DNA of 47,544 nt from a virus: the IMG/VR virus record IMGVR_UViG_3300009177_000053, positions 1 through 47,544 of that record. One strand, 5' to 3'. A program made the position numbers and the translations under genes. Shown here one piece after another: positions 1,018-47,544 of this stretch. The notes under the pieces are model-generated. The model did no database searches. It was not told the origin of the DNA and saw only the letters and a program-made list of their open reading frames with translations. Every line of letters begins with the position of its first letter. The stretch's first letter is position 1.

Positions 1018-2436
1018 TTAGAGGGCGCGGACCTTGGTGGCGTTGGGGAAGCGCTTGGACAGCCTGGTCCGCAGCGCGGCATCCATCGCGAGGCGGGGCG
1101 TGGTGGCCGGCTTCTCCCCAGGCACCGGCTGCGCCTTGAGCAGCGCCGGGTACGCGGAGGGGTGGACGCCATCGATATCCACGCCCAGCTGCTCCAGCGC
1201 GAGGGCATAGATGCTGGCCGCGCTGTCGTGCGCGAGGTCCGGCACCACATCACCGATGTACGGACGGACGGCGGCCTCCGCGATGCGGATGGCCTGGAAT
1301 TCGCCCAGCAGCTCACCGCGCTGCCTCTTGAGCGCCGCGTCCATGGCCGGCTTGTCCATCGGCTTTTCGCCGGGCTTCGGCTCCGGCCCACCGTCCTTAG
1401 CCATGCGGTCCTTGGCCGGCGGGTCCTTGTCCTTGCCCTTCAAATCCTCGGGCTCACCGTCCGCCGCCTTGGGGGCCATCATGGAACATGCCTTGGCATG
1501 GTCCTCATCGGACAGCTTGCCCTTGAGGAATTCGCGGAGCCCTTCGTTGTCCATCGACATCACATCGTCACTGTCGGCGGTGATATCGTCCTGGTCCGGG
1601 TCCCCGTTCTCCAGCGGCCCGAGCTTGTCCAGCAGCTCGATGACGCTATCCAGGTCCGCATCCTGCGCGACGTGAGGCGCGGCCAGGGCGCGGAGGCCGG
1701 CCACCAGCTTGGGCTTGCGGGCGCGGAAATTCTTGCGGTTGATGTCCTTGAGCAGCGGGAACAGGTCCAGCTTGGCATCCGCCGCCACGATCGGCGTGAG
1801 GTGCGAGATAAGGGCGCCGTTGAGCATCAGCGCCGTGCGTGAGGTGAGGGCCGGGGATTTTGCCATCTGGTGAAACTCCGTTTCCGCGTCTTCTACGACT
1901 ACATCCGGGCCAGCTCGACCGGCCTCCACAAGCGCAACGTGATTAGCGCGAATATCGCGCATTATTCCGTCATAGCGCAAGCCATTGTATGTGCCCGGCG
2001 TCATATCCGATTTATATCGATAGGATGCCGACAGCTCGCGCTGCACATCGTTCTCGATACCAGCTATAGCGCTGGGCTTCACGAAAGTGATTGAGGCGTC
2101 CACATAAGGGGGGGTCCAACTGGCATCCGAACCGAGCCAGCCGGCAATATCCGCCTCATCGTAGGTTTCCACGTTGAAGGGGACGTGTTTGTCCAGCACG
2201 GGGCAGCGGTTGAACGTCTGCGCGCCCTTCGCCAGTTCGTCAGGATCGCGGAGCAGATGGTAAATCCGATTGGGCTCTAGCCCCAGCTCCTGCCAGCCGA
2301 TGATTTCATTGCCGCGATAAGGATTGACCGCCGCCTTGGTCACATGGGCGCGCGAAACGTGCAGCTTTCCGTCCGCGTCATAAGTCCGCACGGACTTGTC
2401 AAAAGCGAATTCAACCGTGTTGGGGTCGCGGGGCAT
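1018..2436 (-). CDS. DUF2213 prohead protease fused to a scaffold-like C-terminus
   Basis: A 472-residue head-maturation protein. Residues 1-180 match the DUF2213 phage protease group (herpesvirus-assemblin-like fold). Likely catalytic residues are a Ser in RELSASY (S136 or S138) and His166 in ANHVALVEAGRAG. Residues ~190-472 are charged, Ala/Lys/Glu-rich and low complexity, typical of an internal scaffold. Within this tail, AMDAAL occurs twice (residues 364-369 and 450-455). The AMDA core also lies in the portal-Nudix linker and near the capsid N-terminus, so it may be the protease's own cleavage signal. The gene lies between the MuF and cement genes, as expected for a head operon. The family call is firm; the exact nucleophile is inferred. 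Confidence 0.8.
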   Translation of the reverse strand: MPRDPNTVEFAFDKSVRTYDADGKLHVSRAHVTKAAVNPYRGNEIIGWQELGLEPNRIYHLLRDPDELAKGAQTFNRCPVLDKHVPFNVETYDEADIAGWLGSDASWTPPYVDASITFVKPSAIAGIENDVQRELSASYRYKSDMTPGTYNGLRYDGIMRDIRANHVALVEAGRAGPDVVVEDAETEFHQMAKSPALTSRTALMLNGALISHLTPIVAADAKLDLFPLLKDINRKNFRARKPKLVAGLRALAAPHVAQDADLDSVIELLDKLGPLENGDPDQDDITADSDDVMSMDNEGLREFLKGKLSDEDHAKACSMMAPKAADGEPEDLKGKDKDPPAKDRMAKDGGPEPKPGEKPMDKPAMDAALKRQRGELLGEFQAIRIAEAAVRPYIGDVVPDLAHDSAASIYALALEQLGVDIDGVHPSAYPALLKAQPVPGEKPATTPRLAMDAALRTRLSKRFPNATKVRAL

Positions 2437-2483
2437 GGGGAATCGCTATATCACGAATTCCCGCGCCGGTAAGAGAGCGTTTT

Positions 2484-2519
2484 CGCCGGGCCGGCGGGAG
2501 AAGGGGAACCGGCCCGGCG
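2484..2519. other. Perfect 11-bp intergenic hairpin
   Basis: In the 108-base gap between the MuF and protease-scaffold genes, CGCCGGGCCGG (2484-2494) pairs with CCGGCCCGGCG (2509-2519) across a 14-base loop. Neither strand has a T-run after the stem, so it is not a canonical intrinsic terminator. It could mark an RNA processing or attenuation point between portal-level and scaffold/capsid-level expression. Confidence 0.6.
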
Positions 2520-2544
2520 ATCACGCGCGAAGGGCGCCCGCGCG

Positions 2545-3417
2545 CTAGAACCCAGGAATAACGGATTTCGCGGTGCATCCGCAATTGATCAGCTCGCCCG
2601 GCTGGATGTATTCGCCGCTGATCAAGCAGCCCTGCCGGATATCGAACCTTTTCCCGTGCGCGGCCACATGATCGGGCCGGGGTTGGCGGCCACCGTGAGA
2701 GTGCTGCCAATCCGCCTCAAACAGGCCCAATTCCATCTTGCGGGTCCGCGCCATCGCGGCGGTGGCCTTGTTGTTCTGGTCCCGCGCGATGTTCGCGGCC
2801 CGCCGGTAGGTGATGCCATAGCGGTGCTGCAATTCCTCGGTAATCACCTGGGCGTCACGTCCGGCCTGGATGCCGCGCATGACGATGCCGCGCACATCGC
2901 CCAGGTGCTCACTGGCGATCGACCGAATGAGCCCCACGTTTTCGTCCAGCGTGGCCTGGAAAACATCGGTGCTGGCGCGGGTGGGGTCGAACCGCACGGA
3001 AAAGCCGGCCTCGCGCAGGATCGAGCGCAGCTGACTTTCCGACCGCTCCAGGGCGTTGGTGGCGAACCAGGCGGCCATCCGCGGCGCGGCCTCATCGAAT
3101 CGCTGCTGCCAATACTTCGCGAGCCGGTCCATGATCCTCTTGAGGGCGGAGGCCGGCGCCGCGTCCTCCGCGAGCTGGGCCACGGCGGGTTCATTGGCCC
3201 GGTAGCCGGCGCGGAGGTGCCACACCAGGGACCGCTGCATTTCCTCCACCAGCCGTTCCATCTTGCCCTGATATTTTTCCTTCACGGCGGCATTGGGCTG
3301 GACCGATGAAATCACCTTGTCCTTGCCGCTGGGCATCCGCAGCGGCCCCGAGGTGATGCGCTGCCGCCGTTCCATCGCCTGCCGGCGGGGGCTCACGGGT
3401 CGCGGCATATGATCCAC
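2545..3417 (-). CDS. MuF-type minor head protein
   Basis: A 290-residue minor capsid or portal-associated protein. The C-terminal third has the MuF (phage Mu F-like/SPP1 gp7) pattern: a region around RRAANIARDQNNKATAAM, then ADWQHSHGGRQPRPDHVAAH and a final CGC motif. The N-terminal part is helical and arginine-rich. It follows the portal gene, the standard position for MuF. The longest reading starts at GTG 3417; an in-frame ATG at 3408 is equally possible and neither has a strong ribosome site. The start region overlaps the 24-codon membrane-peptide gene in another frame. It ends with TAG. Confidence 0.85.
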   Translation of the reverse strand: MDHMPRPVSPRRQAMERRQRITSGPLRMPSGKDKVISSVQPNAAVKEKYQGKMERLVEEMQRSLVWHLRAGYRANEPAVAQLAEDAAPASALKRIMDRLAKYWQQRFDEAAPRMAAWFATNALERSESQLRSILREAGFSVRFDPTRASTDVFQATLDENVGLIRSIASEHLGDVRGIVMRGIQAGRDAQVITEELQHRYGITYRRAANIARDQNNKATAAMARTRKMELGLFEADWQHSHGGRQPRPDHVAAHGKRFDIRQGCLISGEYIQPGELINCGCTAKSVIPGF

Positions 3418-3467
3418 ACCACCCAGGCGAATATCACCACGAAGGCGAGAAGTTTAAGCGCCCACAT
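3393..3467 (-). CDS. 24-residue hydrophobic membrane peptide
   Basis: A very short frame reading MWALKLLAFVVIFAWVVWII then CRDP. It is one predicted transmembrane helix with Lys5 near the start and Arg22 after the helix. Its ATG overlaps the portal stop as TGATG, and its 3' end overlaps the start of MuF in another frame, so it is placed for coupled translation. Function is unknown. The composition and coupling argue against chance, but no homologue is recognised. A lysis or inner-membrane role is possible. Confidence 0.45.
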   Translation of the reverse strand: MWALKLLAFVVIFAWVVWIICRDP

Positions 3468-5383
3468 CAGCCAATCCGCAGGGGCCGGACCAGCAGCTCC
3501 AGCGCCGCCGCAAGGCCGGGGTGCAGCGGCTGGGGCGGAGCGTCCACGCTGGCCCAGGCCCATCCCGTGTGCTCATCGTTGAGCTGCGGGATGAACTGGT
3601 CATCCACGGGGTGGATGAATGTGCTGAAATCGACGTTGCCGCCCAGTTGCCGGGTCAGCAGCCGGCGCGAGCCCGGCGGCATAACGCCCACTTCCTCGAT
3701 TGCCTCGCGCGCGGCGGCCCCTTCGGCTTCCTCGCCTTCCTCGATTTTCCCGGCCGGCAGCGCCCAGGTGCCGCCATTGTCGGCATCGGGCCGGCGCTTC
3801 AAGAACAAGACCATATCGCCGGGGGCGATGAACATGGTGCCGGCGGCCATAAGCGCCGCGTCCATGGCGTGCTCACCCTTCGCGGGATCTCCAGCCGGGT
3901 CACCTTCGTTGAGGTTGGGGTCCACCGGCGGGGGCGGCAGGTCATCGGGGTTGATACCGTGGTACATCGAATTTTCATCGTTCGCGATGCGGCGCCGGCT
4001 GTCCTCCGGATCGAGCACGCCTTTATCGATGAGCACGGCGTCCGTGTCTGCCTTGGTCTTTTCGACCGAGGCGCGGCCCGCGTCATCCAGCTGCCACAGC
4101 GGGTTCCACGAAAACCCTATGTCCTCATCGATATCCCCCCATTCGTTGAGCTGGATGAGGTCCATGCAGGTTTTCAGCAGGGGGCTGACGAACTGCTCCT
4201 GTTGCGCCGCGATCCAGTCATAGAACGCCCGGATTTCGCCATCGCTGGAGGCGTTGAGGCCGCTGGGCGTGATGCCGAACAGCACCACCAGGGGAATGCC
4301 CGTGACGGCGGCCATGTGCTCCTGTGATTGTGCCTGGAGCTTGTCCAGCGATGCCAGCGGGGTGGCGACGGTGAAATATTCCTCAGTGTCCTTGTCCAGC
4401 AGGAAAAGGCCGCCGTTGTCGCGCATCTGGTTATAGAATTCCACGCGCTCGCGCAGCAGCTGCGAGGCCCCAGGCGACGTGAGGTCATCCATGCGGGTTT
4501 TGAGCCCGTTGGTGGCGAACGAATGGATGAGGTCCGAAACGGATTGCCGCGTCCGCAGCCAATTATCCACGTAAGGCTTGGACAGCTGGGTGAGCGAGAG
4601 GCCGCCGAACATATAGGCCGGCTTGAGGATGTCCGGCACCTCGCGGGAAACCATGGTGAGCAACCGCGATCGGTGGACCCTACGCGACTGCACCCACCAC
4701 GTCCGGGGGATAAAGAAATCCTCCGCCAGCGGGTTGTCAGAATTGTACTGGTCCGGGTAGGTCCAAAACGGCTCAATCACCTTGAACCCCTTGAGCCGGC
4801 CCTTGCCGAGCTTCCGCCGGTCCATGATCAAGGGCGTGGTCAGCTCATGAGGGTTGCCGTTGTCCCCCGTGTCGATCGACAGATTAGAGCGGCCAAACCA
4901 GCCATCCAGCTCAATCATTTTGGTGAACTTCGCCTTGAGCTTGTAACGCTCAATCAGCTCCACCATCCGCTGGACCTTGGGGGACTTGTCGCGTTCGCTG
5001 GTGGCGCTGACCGTCACCCACTTCCGCGTCATGTTCTTTGCCAGGATTTCGGACGGGCGCCGGTACTCAGGCCGGAGTGCCAGCTCCGCCAGCCACGCAT
5101 AGCCCATGAAGCCTTGGCCTTCGCCCCAGGCATACTGATTGGCCCACTCATACACCGGGGTTAGGGCCTCATCGTGGGCCAGCTTCACCTCATCGTTCGC
5201 CACCCCAGGCGGCAGCGGCGGCATGACGAACGGGGATTGCCCGCGCTCGCCCAGGCCGATGCGCTTCTGTCCGCGCGCCCAGCCGATGAGGTTGGCCGGC
5301 AGCTTGATGGGGAGCTGGGGAGGGGGCACCACTTCCGGCACCACGGTGGGAACGCGATTGCGATTGAAAAGCCGTCCGAACAT
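3467..5383 (-). CDS. DUF1073-type portal protein fused to a Nudix hydrolase
   Basis: A 638-residue fusion. Residues 1 to about 480 are a portal of the DUF1073 (gp6-like) group, forming the ring through which DNA is packaged and head joins tail. A Pro/Asp-rich linker (~480-505) leads to AMDAAL (506-511) and then a Nudix domain to the C-terminus. The Nudix box is complete at 545-567: GKIEEGE, seven residues, then REAIEEVGV. It therefore looks catalytically competent on a nucleoside diphosphate linked to another moiety. Related DUF1073 portals in databases are often labelled anti-CBASS Acb1 family, suggesting that this portal family carries cargo domains at its C-terminus. The start overlaps the terminase stop by one base (TGATG). 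Portal identity and Nudix box are secure; substrate is unknown. Confidence 0.88.
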   Translation of the reverse strand: MFGRLFNRNRVPTVVPEVVPPPQLPIKLPANLIGWARGQKRIGLGERGQSPFVMPPLPPGVANDEVKLAHDEALTPVYEWANQYAWGEGQGFMGYAWLAELALRPEYRRPSEILAKNMTRKWVTVSATSERDKSPKVQRMVELIERYKLKAKFTKMIELDGWFGRSNLSIDTGDNGNPHELTTPLIMDRRKLGKGRLKGFKVIEPFWTYPDQYNSDNPLAEDFFIPRTWWVQSRRVHRSRLLTMVSREVPDILKPAYMFGGLSLTQLSKPYVDNWLRTRQSVSDLIHSFATNGLKTRMDDLTSPGASQLLRERVEFYNQMRDNGGLFLLDKDTEEYFTVATPLASLDKLQAQSQEHMAAVTGIPLVVLFGITPSGLNASSDGEIRAFYDWIAAQQEQFVSPLLKTCMDLIQLNEWGDIDEDIGFSWNPLWQLDDAGRASVEKTKADTDAVLIDKGVLDPEDSRRRIANDENSMYHGINPDDLPPPPVDPNLNEGDPAGDPAKGEHAMDAALMAAGTMFIAPGDMVLFLKRRPDADNGGTWALPAGKIEEGEEAEGAAAREAIEEVGVMPPGSRRLLTRQLGGNVDFSTFIHPVDDQFIPQLNDEHTGWAWASVDAPPQPLHPGLAAALELLVRPLRIG

Positions 5384-6996
5384 CAGCGCCGCCCCGCTCC
5401 TGTTACCGCCCAGGTCCGCAAGCTGGCCGGGACAGCAATGGGCTTACCGCTGGTCCCGGAGAATTCAATCATAACCGCGTCGGCAAGGTTAGGCGACTTG
5501 GTTCCCTCGGGCGTCTTGTTGATCACGATCTTTCCCACGCCGTTGGTCTGATAGGTGGGCTGGGACAGCTCGCCCAGCAGCCTTTCCCGTAGCGGCAATT
5601 CGGACGGGATGGAAATCAATTCGTCCGGGTCATAGTGCTCGCCATTCACCGCCTTATGCGTGTGCTCAAAGCGGGTCCGCAGCTTCCACCATGCTTGCGC
5701 CTTCCGGTTCTGGAAATAGTCCTTGTTTTTGCGGCCCTTCACGTCCTCCGCCTCGGGCCGCTCAACGCCGGCAGAACCGCGAAACAGCGTGACGCCAATA
5801 ACCCGGCGCCGGGCCGCCTGCCGCTGGTCATTGATCACGCGGGCATCGCCGCGGACGCCAGCGCCCAGGCCATCGCCATCGGCGGTGAGGGTTTCATATT
5901 CCCCATCGTCGCACAGCTCGAGCGCCCGCCTGGTTGTCTCAAAGATATCCCCGCCGCTGCCGCTCCATTCCTCCAGGCTTTCCAGCAGGATGCCGTGGCG
6001 GCCACAGAACGCATTAAGGTCCGGCCCCTCATCGGCCACGTCCAGGCTGGCCGATCGGCGCCCGGTGATGGTGATTCCCAGCTTCTTGTGAGCGTCGATC
6101 GCGGAGCGCACCCAGGCACCGGGGATCACGATGCCGCGCACGGACGCGGTGTAATCCATATCGATTTCCTGGGCCAGGACCACCGCGTCCAGCTCCGCCT
6201 TCTTTTTCGCGTACCACGCCTCATCCTTGCGGGGGTCATCGCGCCAGCCGAACGAAAACACTTTGACGCGACCGCTCCAGCGCTTTTGCGCGAAGGGGTT
6301 GCCCATGCCGTTCACGCTGGAGAAATCCACGCGGCAATTGGTGGTGGCGGACAGCGCGGCCTCCGCCAGCATGGGGTGCTCCAGGTGCGCGGCCTCATCC
6401 ACGAAATAGATTGAGGTTCGATCGCCGCGCCCGATGTTATCGCCCACCTCGCCCGAAATGGACGCATGGGTGTCCGGGAAGATCAGCCGCTTTTGCGGAG
6501 CGTGCCGGCTTTCATCCCAGCCGCCGCGCAGCTCGCGGGGCAGGTTGCGGAGGAAGAACCGCCCTTTCCAGAACAGGCTTTTGGGCTCCGCCGGCTTATC
6601 AACGTATTCCTCTTTGCGGGAGCCGAACCCGGCGCGGAAACTGTCATAGTGGAGGGCGAGGGTGCAGGCGAGGCCCATGGCAAGCCAGCTGGCCCCCACC
6701 TCGCGGGTTTTCTCGGTTATCGAGGCTTCGGCCAGCCGCCACCGATCGAGCACGAATTGCACCCATTCCCGTTGCTTGGGGAACAGCACGAACGGCAGCA
6801 CCGGCGGGATGCCCGTGCCCACGTTGAGGGGGTTGTACGTCATCCCCCAATCGTTGATGAAATCCGCCGGGTTGAGCCGGTAATAGGCTTTCACCTGGGC
6901 CAGTTTTTCGGGGTTGGACCGCAACCAGGCGAGGCGGCGACGGCGGCCAGCGTAGACCGCCTCATAGTCCGGGTTCTTGAAGTCGAATTCGGCCAT
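5383..6996 (-). CDS. terL: Terminase large subunit (packaging ATPase-nuclease)
   Basis: A 537-residue DNA packaging motor. The ATPase domain has a Walker A-like KTREVGAS (residues 96-103), as in terminases that lack the classical GKT, and a Walker B strand SIYFVDE (195-201). The C-terminal nuclease has its first aspartate in SLDVADEG (D319) and a second acidic cluster in TADGDGLGAG (~371-380). Length is typical. It directly precedes the portal gene with a one-base overlap. TerS is unusually far upstream, at 13389-13778, separated by about 6 kb of accessory genes. Confidence 0.93.
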   Translation of the reverse strand: MAEFDFKNPDYEAVYAGRRRRLAWLRSNPEKLAQVKAYYRLNPADFINDWGMTYNPLNVGTGIPPVLPFVLFPKQREWVQFVLDRWRLAEASITEKTREVGASWLAMGLACTLALHYDSFRAGFGSRKEEYVDKPAEPKSLFWKGRFFLRNLPRELRGGWDESRHAPQKRLIFPDTHASISGEVGDNIGRGDRTSIYFVDEAAHLEHPMLAEAALSATTNCRVDFSSVNGMGNPFAQKRWSGRVKVFSFGWRDDPRKDEAWYAKKKAELDAVVLAQEIDMDYTASVRGIVIPGAWVRSAIDAHKKLGITITGRRSASLDVADEGPDLNAFCGRHGILLESLEEWSGSGGDIFETTRRALELCDDGEYETLTADGDGLGAGVRGDARVINDQRQAARRRVIGVTLFRGSAGVERPEAEDVKGRKNKDYFQNRKAQAWWKLRTRFEHTHKAVNGEHYDPDELISIPSELPLRERLLGELSQPTYQTNGVGKIVINKTPEGTKSPNLADAVMIEFSGTSGKPIAVPASLRTWAVTGAGRR

Positions 6997-7008: not shown

Positions 7009-7668
7009 TCAGGCGGCACGCCTTGGCGAAAGCATGTCCATTTGCCGGCTGGCAGCGTCGATCAGCGGGATTGTCTGCGCGTACCGCGTACCGCTGCTGC
7101 CGTCGATCGACCAGGCGCCGGCCCCTGCCGCCATCCAGATACGCCGGCGGGTGTTGGCGCGAGCAACGTGATAATGGATGGCCTGGGCGCGGGGCTGGCC
7201 CGTTTCCGGATCGAGCGCGCAGAAATCGCCCCAATAGCGCATCCGCTCCACCTTCCATTCGGTCGATCCACCCAGGAAGATGCCCACCGATGGCCCCACG
7301 AAGGGCGCGAGGTCCGCCGCTTCCATGCCATCCTGTACCGCGATGAGCACCATAGGCACCACCGCAAGGCAGCGGTTGAGGTAGCGCAGGGACAGGGCCA
7401 GAGACGGCAGGCCGGCGGCCACGATGTCCGGCAGCACAAGCCAATCCGGGGCGGTGGGCTGGGCCTCTATCCACGCCAGAAACCGCTCAAAGGCTTCCTC
7501 ATCGAACGGACGTTGGGCGAGGAAATCGGACCAGGCCCCATTATCGGCGGCCCACGGGAACCCCTCGGTACGCCACACCCCGGCCCGGCTGATGAGTAGA
7601 CGCCATCCGCGGCGGCGCATGGCGGCCAGATTGCGCCGCGTGCCCGTCCGGCTGGCATAGACAATCAC
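7009..7668 (-). CDS. DpdA-like (TGT-fold) DNA transglycosylase candidate
   Basis: A 219-residue protein starting at GTG 7668, which overlaps the preceding stop as GTGA and has GGAGG ten bases upstream. It resembles the phage DpdA/TGT-like family, which exchanges guanine in DNA for a 7-deazaguanine base. Visible conserved blocks are GTRRNLAAMRRRGWRLL, ADNGAW with Asp42, LVLPDIVAAG with Asp81, VGIFLGGSTEWK (~128-139), a HVARANTRRRI block and IDGSSGTRYA. It is shorter than well-studied DpdA proteins (about 400 residues), so it may be a compact subfamily. No queuosine or preQ0 synthesis genes are visible, so a precursor would have to come from the host. The neighbouring Mom-like gene supports a DNA-modification role. 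Confidence 0.6.
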   Translation of the reverse strand: MIVYASRTGTRRNLAAMRRRGWRLLISRAGVWRTEGFPWAADNGAWSDFLAQRPFDEEAFERFLAWIEAQPTAPDWLVLPDIVAAGLPSLALSLRYLNRCLAVVPMVLIAVQDGMEAADLAPFVGPSVGIFLGGSTEWKVERMRYWGDFCALDPETGQPRAQAIHYHVARANTRRRIWMAAGAGAWSIDGSSGTRYAQTIPLIDAASRQMDMLSPRRAA

Positions 7669-8138
7669 GGCGGGAACGCCTCCAGAATCACCAGCTTGTT
7701 CCACTTGGTGATGCCGCATTTTCGCCAGCCGGCCAGCTGGAAACAATAGCCTGGGTTCGTGCTGCGGACCTTGCTGGCGTTGACGTAGGTGTAGAGCCGT
7801 TCCCCCGGCCACCGTGCCCAGGCGAGAGCCATGGCATCCAGGATGAGGTCCGACGATCGCCCGGCGCCGGTGTTGCGGAATACCGCACAGTTCACCCCTT
7901 GCTGGCCGTCCCCGCTGATGAATTTCCGCCATACGAACAGGGCGCGGGCGCAGGGGGTGAGCAGCACCATTTTCTGGCCCGGCCCGACAAATAGCCCAGG
8001 GTCGCGGCCATCGGCATAAGGCTTGTGGCTGTAGTGCTGGCGGAAGATGGACAGGGCCGTGGGGTTGCCGTCCCGCGTCTCAATCCAGGTCGCGCCAGTG
8101 AGGTCCAGCTGCGGCTGGGCGGCCAGCGCGCGGGGCAT
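7665..8138 (-). CDS. Mom-like GNAT-fold protein, putative DNA modification acyltransferase
   Basis: A 157-residue protein with a layout like phage Mu Mom and related GNAT proteins: an N-terminal FRQHYSHK (His-Tyr at 35-36), a central GVNCAVFRNTG, a helix after SSDLILDAMALAWARWPG, and a C-terminal RLYTYVN strand followed by NPGYCFQLAGW. Mom converts adenine in DNA to a carbamoylmethyl derivative. The present assignment rests on pattern resemblance and the HY pair, so it is tentative. It is coupled on both sides: TGATG with the gene above and GTGA with the DpdA-like gene below. That close pairing suggests both act on phage DNA. Confidence 0.5.
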   Translation of the reverse strand: MPRALAAQPQLDLTGATWIETRDGNPTALSIFRQHYSHKPYADGRDPGLFVGPGQKMVLLTPCARALFVWRKFISGDGQQGVNCAVFRNTGAGRSSDLILDAMALAWARWPGERLYTYVNASKVRSTNPGYCFQLAGWRKCGITKWNKLVILEAFPP

Positions 8139-46428: not shown

Positions 46429-47460
46429 TCAGATACCCGCCATTTGCGCGACGGCCATGGGCATGAACCAGATGGTTCCCCAGGTGCCTTGCGTCTTTTT
46501 CTGTTTCCAGCTGCTGGACTTCGCGATGATGCGGTGAGCCCGCATCTTTTCGTTGAAGCCACAGGTTGCCGTCTGCTGGCCGTCGATTTCGTGGACGATC
46601 AGCTGGCAGCTGTAGGTGGTGCCGGACAGGTACTGCGGCGCCTGCTTGATCGTGAGGTTTGGGAAAACCTTCTTGATCATTTCGGCAGCGGTCAGGCCGA
46701 AGTCGTTGGTGTTGGCAATGTACACCTCGGACACCGAGTGCATCGCCAGCGTCATCGTGGCGTCCAGCTCCAGATTGGAGCCCGTTTGCAGCTGCAACTC
46801 CGCAAACATGGACTGCACGTCCTTGAGGATTTCCGTGGGGAGTGCGTTTTTCCACGAAGTCCCGCCGCCGGTTTTCGTGCCTGGAGTGAGGGCAGGCGAC
46901 AGCGCCGGGTCGTTGAGGATGCCATAGTTGGCGAGGCCGGCGACGCCGTAAAAATAGGTGTTGTTCTGGTACTTATCCAGAACCCGCGCGGCGCTGATGT
47001 TGAGCCGCTGCGCCCAGGCGATCTTGGCGAGGCCCATGCGATCGGCTTCGCGCTCGCCCCACTCGGTGAACAGCTGGTAGAGATAGCTCTGCCGCGGAAC
47101 CCAATTGACGTTCGCGCCGGCGCGGCCATTGGTGTTGTAGTCGCCATATGACGACACCTCACCGGTGGTTTCCACGATCGGGAATTCCGCCGTTTCGGTC
47201 ACCCAATCGCCCTTGCGCCCTTCGTCCCCGATGATCTTGGTGGCGTTGTTCGGGGTCGTGAGCACCTCAATGACTTTGGGGTCAATGTAGGTGCTCAACC
47301 AATTCGGGATGCCCGAGTTGGCGACGGTGACCAGGGCCGGCTGGGCGTCCATCGCCACCTCCAGGTCCCCGGAAATACCATCCATGATGAAATCGATGGT
47401 GTCCGGCAGATAGATGCCGTGCGACCGCTCGAACGCCACCAGTTCTTGATTTCGCAACAT
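46429..47460 (-). CDS. Major capsid protein (DUF2184-like, HK97 fold)
   Basis: A 343-residue protein matching the DUF2184 major capsid group: SGIPNWLSTYIDPKVIEVLT, VNWVPRQSYLYQLFTEWGER and WAQRLNISAARVLDKYQNNT. The N-terminus contains VAMDAQPAL (AMDA at 36-39), which I propose as a maturation cleavage site. The start follows the cement gene on the circular map. It forms the icosahedral shell. Confidence 0.88.
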   Translation of the reverse strand: MLRNQELVAFERSHGIYLPDTIDFIMDGISGDLEVAMDAQPALVTVANSGIPNWLSTYIDPKVIEVLTTPNNATKIIGDEGRKGDWVTETAEFPIVETTGEVSSYGDYNTNGRAGANVNWVPRQSYLYQLFTEWGEREADRMGLAKIAWAQRLNISAARVLDKYQNNTYFYGVAGLANYGILNDPALSPALTPGTKTGGGTSWKNALPTEILKDVQSMFAELQLQTGSNLELDATMTLAMHSVSEVYIANTNDFGLTAAEMIKKVFPNLTIKQAPQYLSGTTYSCQLIVHEIDGQQTATCGFNEKMRAHRIIAKSSSWKQKKTQGTWGTIWFMPMAVAQMAGI

Positions 47461-47544
47461 GGCTGATTACCCCTGGGCTGAACGTGAGACTTTGACCAGT
47501 TCGCCGGGGAGCCCGAAGGTCCGGCAGTACCAATCCGTCTCCAC
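47422..47544. repeat. Right copy of the 123-base terminal overlap
   Basis: Exact repeat of 1-123. See the left copy. Confidence 0.95.
47467..47544 (-). CDS. Cement protein, 3' end only (duplicate of 46-984)
   Basis: The last 26 codons, including the stop, of the cement gene repeat here because of the terminal overlap. Confidence 0.9.
   Translation of the reverse strand: METDWYCRTFGLPGELVKVSRSAQG

Follow-up and report, generated by a model that had tools for sequence, protein, structure and literature searches.

Introduction

The DNA analysed here, hereafter the window, is a stretch of 47,544 nucleotides from IMG/VR virus record IMGVR_UViG_3300009177_000053, and in it the phage portal gene continues in frame into a Nudix hydrolase domain. 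The portal remains in the emptied head, and it has so far been unclear by which route effectors fused to it would reach the host. This question would be answered by a protease site between the two domains. Such a site would also provide a simple sequence rule for finding other head-delivered effectors, which is testable in laboratory phages such as Bcep781. The fusion as such and the idea of its packaging were already known; what is new here is the likely release mechanism.

Results and Discussion

The portal–Nudix gene and its surroundings

The window ends in an exact direct repeat of 123 bases (positions 1–123 and 47422–47544) and is therefore probably an entire phage genome in circularly closed form, about 47.4 kb long. 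On the minus strand the genes are ordered as terminase, portal–Nudix, MuF-like protein, DUF2213 protease, cement protein and then, across the repeat, the major capsid protein (MCP) (Table 1). Immediately upstream of the terminase lie two ORFs (7009–7932 and 7665–8138, minus strand) that match only phrog_15826 and phrog_24928, both of unknown function. Another contig, IMGVR_UViG_3300009093_000365 (L004/L207), is 99.93% identical to positions 1442–5471 of the window and has an in-frame stop at portal codon 142, which is either a variant or a sequencing error.

Table 1. Positions of the portal–Nudix gene, its parts and the neighbouring head genes in the window
Feature	Position	Strand	Evidence
Portal–Nudix fusion protein, 638 aa	3467..5383	minus	One unbroken ORF; PF06381 and PF00293
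Portal core (Phage_portal_3), residues 106–449	4037..5068	minus	Pfam; sequence relative of E217, Pa193 and Pam3 portals of known structure
Linker, residues 478–509, Pro/Asp-rich, low model confidence	3857..3952	minus	pLDDT ~40–55 after residue 490
Putative maturation-protease site AMDA, residues 506–509, directly before the Nudix domain	3857..3868	minus	Tetrapeptide shared with MCP and with two places in the protease; homologous E217 MCP site
Nudix domain in its predicted released form, residues 510–638	3470..3856	minus	Pfam NUDIX 514–626; AlphaFold pLDDT 91.9
Nudix box, residues 545–567 (GX5EX7REXXEEXG)	3683..3751	minus	Catalytic positions fully or almost fully conserved across 89 relatives
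Subfamily motif LNDEHTGWAW, residues 601–610	3554..3583	minus	E, H and W conserved in 88–89 of 89 relatives
Large terminase, just upstream of the portal	5383..6996	minus	phrog_2 terminase, E 4e-21
MuF-like head morphogenesis protein	2545..3417	minus	PF04233, E 2e-10
DUF2213 head maturation protease/scaffold; sites AQDA 257–260, AMDA 364–367, AMDA 450–453	1018..2436	minus	PF09979, E 4e-42; phrog_2229; motif scan
Major capsid protein, AMDA at residues 36–39	46429..47460	minus	Matches E217/Pa193 MCP; motif scan

An earlier note, made from the sequence alone, had placed a DUF1073-type portal followed by a Nudix domain at 3467–5383. Pfam and PHROGs agree with these coordinates and this content, and the strand, which the note left unstated, is minus. 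The portal half is a full-length member of the Phage_portal_3 (DUF1073) portals, its Pfam match covering profile positions 12–356 of 357 (E 5.3e-82). The NUDIX match in the C-terminal region has an E value of 3.9e-16 and a score of 59.7 against a curated cut-off of 21.1. The PHROGs profiles found are those of portal protein (E 4e-106) and MutT/NUDIX hydrolase (E 2e-15), and phmmer connects the protein to portals of known structure (9b41/8fvh, E 1e-37). The extension, whose absence from related phages the note took as a point against it, is present in four Naesvirus isolates with the same architecture. The same fusion in these isolates and the single ORF rule out an assembly or frameshift artefact.

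In the AlphaFold model of the full-length protein the pLDDT exceeds 90 across most of residues 100–480 and the Nudix part is poorly modelled, probably due to a shallow alignment in that region. The placement of the Nudix domain relative to the portal was therefore not taken from this model.

Fold, conservation and possible substrates of the Nudix domain

When modelled in isolation with 43 sequences, the C-terminal domain was confidently predicted to have a Nudix fold (pLDDT 91.9). The best match among solved structures has a Z score of 18.3, and many Nudix structures score between 15 and 18. The Nudix box GKIEEGEEAEGAAAREAIEEVGV was found at the residues where it had been noted before and is intact when compared to GX5EX7REUXEEXGU, with Ala at position U. 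Across 89 aligned relatives its G, R, E, E and E show complete or almost complete conservation, the catalytic Arg and Glu of the REXXEE part being invariant, and the relatives have a second motif, LN-DEHTG-AW, in common. By modelled fold and intact box the domain is a real member of the Nudix hydrolase superfamily, and it is probably active.

The fold gives no substrate because unlike Nudix enzymes rank about equally: MutT, NudI, RppH, Ap4A hydrolase and plant NUDX1 are all neighbours in Foldseek and VIA-align searches. By structure as well as by profile, the domain lies close to generic enzymes of the MutT, NudI, Ap4A/Ap6A and RppH-like types. Assigning a substrate from the nearest structure or profile was rejected, as MutT, NudI, RppH, Ap4A and terpene-phosphate Nudix enzymes score alike. 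None of the NCBIfam equivalogs reaches its own cut-off on the domain. The NudE of phage IME08 is found only at rank 29 among the viral folds matched to the model, and T4 NudE was not among the sequences of the Nudix tree. PADLOC gave a weak match to PDC-S07 across the Nudix box, which we take as generic Nudix similarity.

Of the earlier interpretation, the Nudix domain and the portal family with C-terminal cargo stand, and two suggestions find no support. The comparisons point neither to ADP-ribose nor to another substrate. An Acb1-type (2H phosphoesterase) extension was rejected, as Pfam finds only the portal and NUDIX domains in the protein. The Nudix domain may have an anti-defence role, which has already been suggested in print for such fusions (PMC9503650).

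A candidate maturation-protease site at the junction

In the six-frame ORFs of at least 100 residues in the window, the tetrapeptide AMDA occurs exactly four times: once in the MCP, twice in the protease and once in the portal, where it directly precedes the Nudix domain. The junction reads AMDA|ALMAAG in the window as compared to AQDA|AMRAAG in the Bcep portals, so both portal–Nudix lineages have the motif at the domain boundary. The consensus A[MQ]D[AS], deduced in the present analysis and matched by the portal–Nudix protein at residues 506–509, is concentrated in head proteins. In eight phages, the MCP, protease, MuF and portal sequences (13,229 residues altogether) contain 33 sites, versus 4 in 30,516 residues elsewhere (Fisher p 1e-13), and shuffled head proteins contained on average 1.4 and at most 6. 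Within the window, MuF and the portal N-terminus have no strict A[MQ]D[AS] motif. For the linker alone, shuffling gives a 0.8% chance of finding the motif, and it is therefore the recurrence in several genes and in relatives that carries the case.

The MCP of phage E217 carries the homologous AMDS at residues 62–65. The mature MCP of both E217 and Pa193 is modelled from residue 66, in E217 straight after AMDS; this start is derived from density rather than from N-terminal sequencing, and the E217 authors offer maturation cleavage or disorder as its explanation. The E217 portal has AMDS at residues 70–73 and no strict site before its inorganic pyrophosphatase (InPase) cargo. Residues 1–93 of the Pa193 portal were not seen by LC-MS. 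Taken together, AMDA at residues 506–509 is likely a maturation-protease site, and from the MCP start in E217 and Pa193 we infer that it would be cleaved, probably by the DUF2213 protease.

Related fusions and the distribution of the Nudix module

The Burkholderia phages Bcep1, Bcep43, Bcep781 and BcepNY3 (Naesvirus) have the same portal–Nudix architecture, with 35–36% identity to the window protein over 85% of its length; in BcepNY3 the protein is annotated as "NUDIX hydrolase". They share the DUF1073 portal with a C-terminal Nudix domain, a site-like AQDA at the equivalent boundary and the gene order TerL–portal–MuF–protease–cement–MCP. They are only 35–39% identical and differ in a longer linker, in AQDA replacing AMDA and in their Nudix domain, which is not the closest relative of that in the window in the tree. 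Between Bcep1 and Bcep781 the portal core shows dN 0.004 and dS 0.31, whereas the Nudix domain shows dN 0.109 and dS 0.33 (omega 0.33). Despite this faster evolution no change is seen in the catalytic residues or in the DEHT motif. The divergence fits a constrained enzyme with fast change at other positions, three close genomes being too few to establish positive selection. A literature search for Bcep781 together with Nudix found nothing.

The Nudix module is also found on other head genes. We scanned 82 loci of portal relatives, 80 from viral contigs and 2 from genomes. In eight of these a long ORF downstream of the portal, mostly a DUF2213-type protease, starts with this Nudix domain (L108 and L109, which are the same match, were counted separately). 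A strict site separates Nudix and protease in three of the seven protease-fused loci examined (L108, L146 and L152), looser forms occur in L128 and L138, and L144 and L147 lack a strict junction site. Shewanella phage QDWS has a Nudix–protease fusion as well, and in Burkholderia phage Bm1 a stand-alone Nudix gene adjoins MuF. The fusions in QDWS, L108, L128, L146 and L152 resemble the window in Nudix subfamily, head gene cluster and frequent boundary site, but the Nudix domain sits on the N-terminus of the protease, not on the portal. A different protein (L016:4260-5648) has a Nudix domain at about residues 248–369 of 463, and its N-terminal part resembles by eye a phage head-protease-type domain.

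In the phylogenetic tree the portal-borne Nudix domains lie among the protease-borne copies, and free copies of other phages are separate (split 100/100). Either one or two captures by the portal fit this tree. Junction DNA patterns in IMG/VR detected no portal–Nudix lineage beyond the window's twin contig and the Naesvirus records, and the fusion therefore looks rare. The scan of genome contigs gave only two portal relatives, both lacking Nudix.

Iyer, Burroughs and Aravind (2022; PMC9503650) reported Nudix domains similar to that of T4 NudE on MuF, portal and capsid-processing peptidase, and suggest that they may be packaged and injected. That work agrees with ours in placing Nudix on head proteins and in proposing packaging and injection; it differs in the assignment to a T4 NudE-like clade, and in the available part of its text no junction site for the maturation protease is described. 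An earlier paper (Iyer et al. 2017) reported portals fused to 2H, PBECR and InPase domains.

Possible mechanisms

The explanation that we favour, to which we assign a probability of about 0.5, is that the Nudix enzyme is targeted to the head, released by the protease and ejected with the DNA. Attachment to the portal C-terminus would carry up to 12 Nudix copies into the head. During head maturation the DUF2213 protease would cut after AMDA (residue 509), giving an ordinary portal and a free Nudix enzyme of 129 residues within the head. It is small enough that it could exit together with the DNA and be active within minutes of the start of infection. The location agrees with the related portals. 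In E217 the C-terminal helical barrel of the portal projects into the head, and gp19 of E217 and Pa193 shows no density past residue 528 (residues 529–765). The Nudix domain in the window starts, by sequence alignment, roughly where the modelled part of these portals stops, and by analogy it should be located in the head lumen. E217 and Pa193 gp19 are thus comparable in portal family and in a C-terminal extension after the barrel inside the head, which in E217 is also an enzyme; E217 differs in its InPase cargo and in the missing strict site. Since a likely protease site lies between the domains, ejection with the DNA would be easier, as without it a portal-bound domain would stay in the empty head. 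The freed Nudix might, on the other hand, escape from the prohead before packaging.

The same proposed logic of head targeting, protease trimming and delivery with the DNA applies to T4 Alt and the internal proteins. It also applies to P1 DarA, the cleavage of which is cited in PMC5512222. These systems involve other proteins and proteases and are not portal fusions.

The target would most plausibly be a diphosphate-linked nucleotide, either a signal of host defence or a derivative of NAD/ADP-ribose; nucleotide sanitation and RNA-cap removal could be other roles. Assuming 10 turnovers per second and a cell of 1 fL, 12 enzymes would remove about 0.1 mM substrate in 10 min, which is roughly enough for a signal molecule and little for bulk NAD. 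Because of this limited amount, a signal or a rare damaged nucleotide is tentatively favoured as substrate.

Three other explanations can be considered. The Nudix domain could stay on the portal and have its function, such as nucleotide clean-up, inside the infected cell while late genes are expressed or heads assembled, with any cut merely clearing it from the finished head. Late head genes are expressed throughout assembly, and in other phages the cleaved scaffold and delta fragments exit the prohead. The E217 and Pa193 portal extensions, which lack density, and the missing strict junction site in E217 would also agree with such a late function. We nevertheless consider it unlikely, as the module shifts between the C-terminus of the portal, the N-terminus of the protease and a separate gene beside MuF, which suits head targeting better. 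A free Nudix enzyme could also be obtained by internal translation initiation at Met507 (Met578 in Bcep1), in which case the M of AMDA is a start codon and not part of a protease site. In the window an SD-like AAGGG precedes ATG 507 by about 10 nt, the Bcep ATG is preceded by AGGAT, and the BcepNY3 protease gene is annotated with an internal start for the scaffold. This is improbable in view of the same motif in MCP and protease, where an internal start makes little sense, the homologous E217 motif directly before the modelled mature N-terminus, and the Q that replaces M at the motif position in Bcep portals.

Some Nudix folds are binding domains, such as NrtR, which appears with ADP-ribose among the structural matches. 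That the Nudix domain is an inactive fold with a structural or binding role in the portal crown or linker is nonetheless very improbable. None of the aligned relatives has lost the catalytic residues, which also persist through the rapid Naesvirus divergence, and most related portals have no Nudix domain, so portal function does not depend on it.

Other cargo on related portals

As an enzyme domain fused to a head protein, the Nudix extension has the architecture of packaged portal-borne effectors (polyvalent-type head proteins). The earlier note had described the portal family as known for C-terminal extensions, and comparison of DUF1073-portal C-termini bears this out with a varied cargo: InPase (E217), ADP-ribosyltransferase (ART), zeta-toxin-like kinase, GNAT and topoisomerase IB. 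A wider reading, which we put forward tentatively and at slightly less than even odds, is that DUF1073-type portals are cleavable carriers. Effectors such as Nudix, ART, GNAT and others would enter the head on the portal or the maturation protease and would be freed there by the maturation protease at A-x-D-type sites before ejection.

The InPase of the E217 portal (L092:9124-11421; PF18823, E 3e-43) lies in the C-terminal part without cryo-EM density, and the available part of the E217 structure paper does not mention it. The portal of Pseudomonas phage Orisa03 (L100:2270-4381), annotated only as hypothetical protein, has a C-terminal ADP-ribosyltransferase (PF03496, E 5e-19). At many cargo junctions A-x-D-x is followed by [FW]...HPR...GKF, a looser candidate cleavage pattern. 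In the form A-x-D-x..[FW].E..HPR...G.F it recurs before the cargo in 13 portal tails (L107, L122, L140, L145, L149, L150, L153, L156, L159, L165, L173, L175 and L182). In L145 and L150 site-like motifs are repeated between successive cargo domains.
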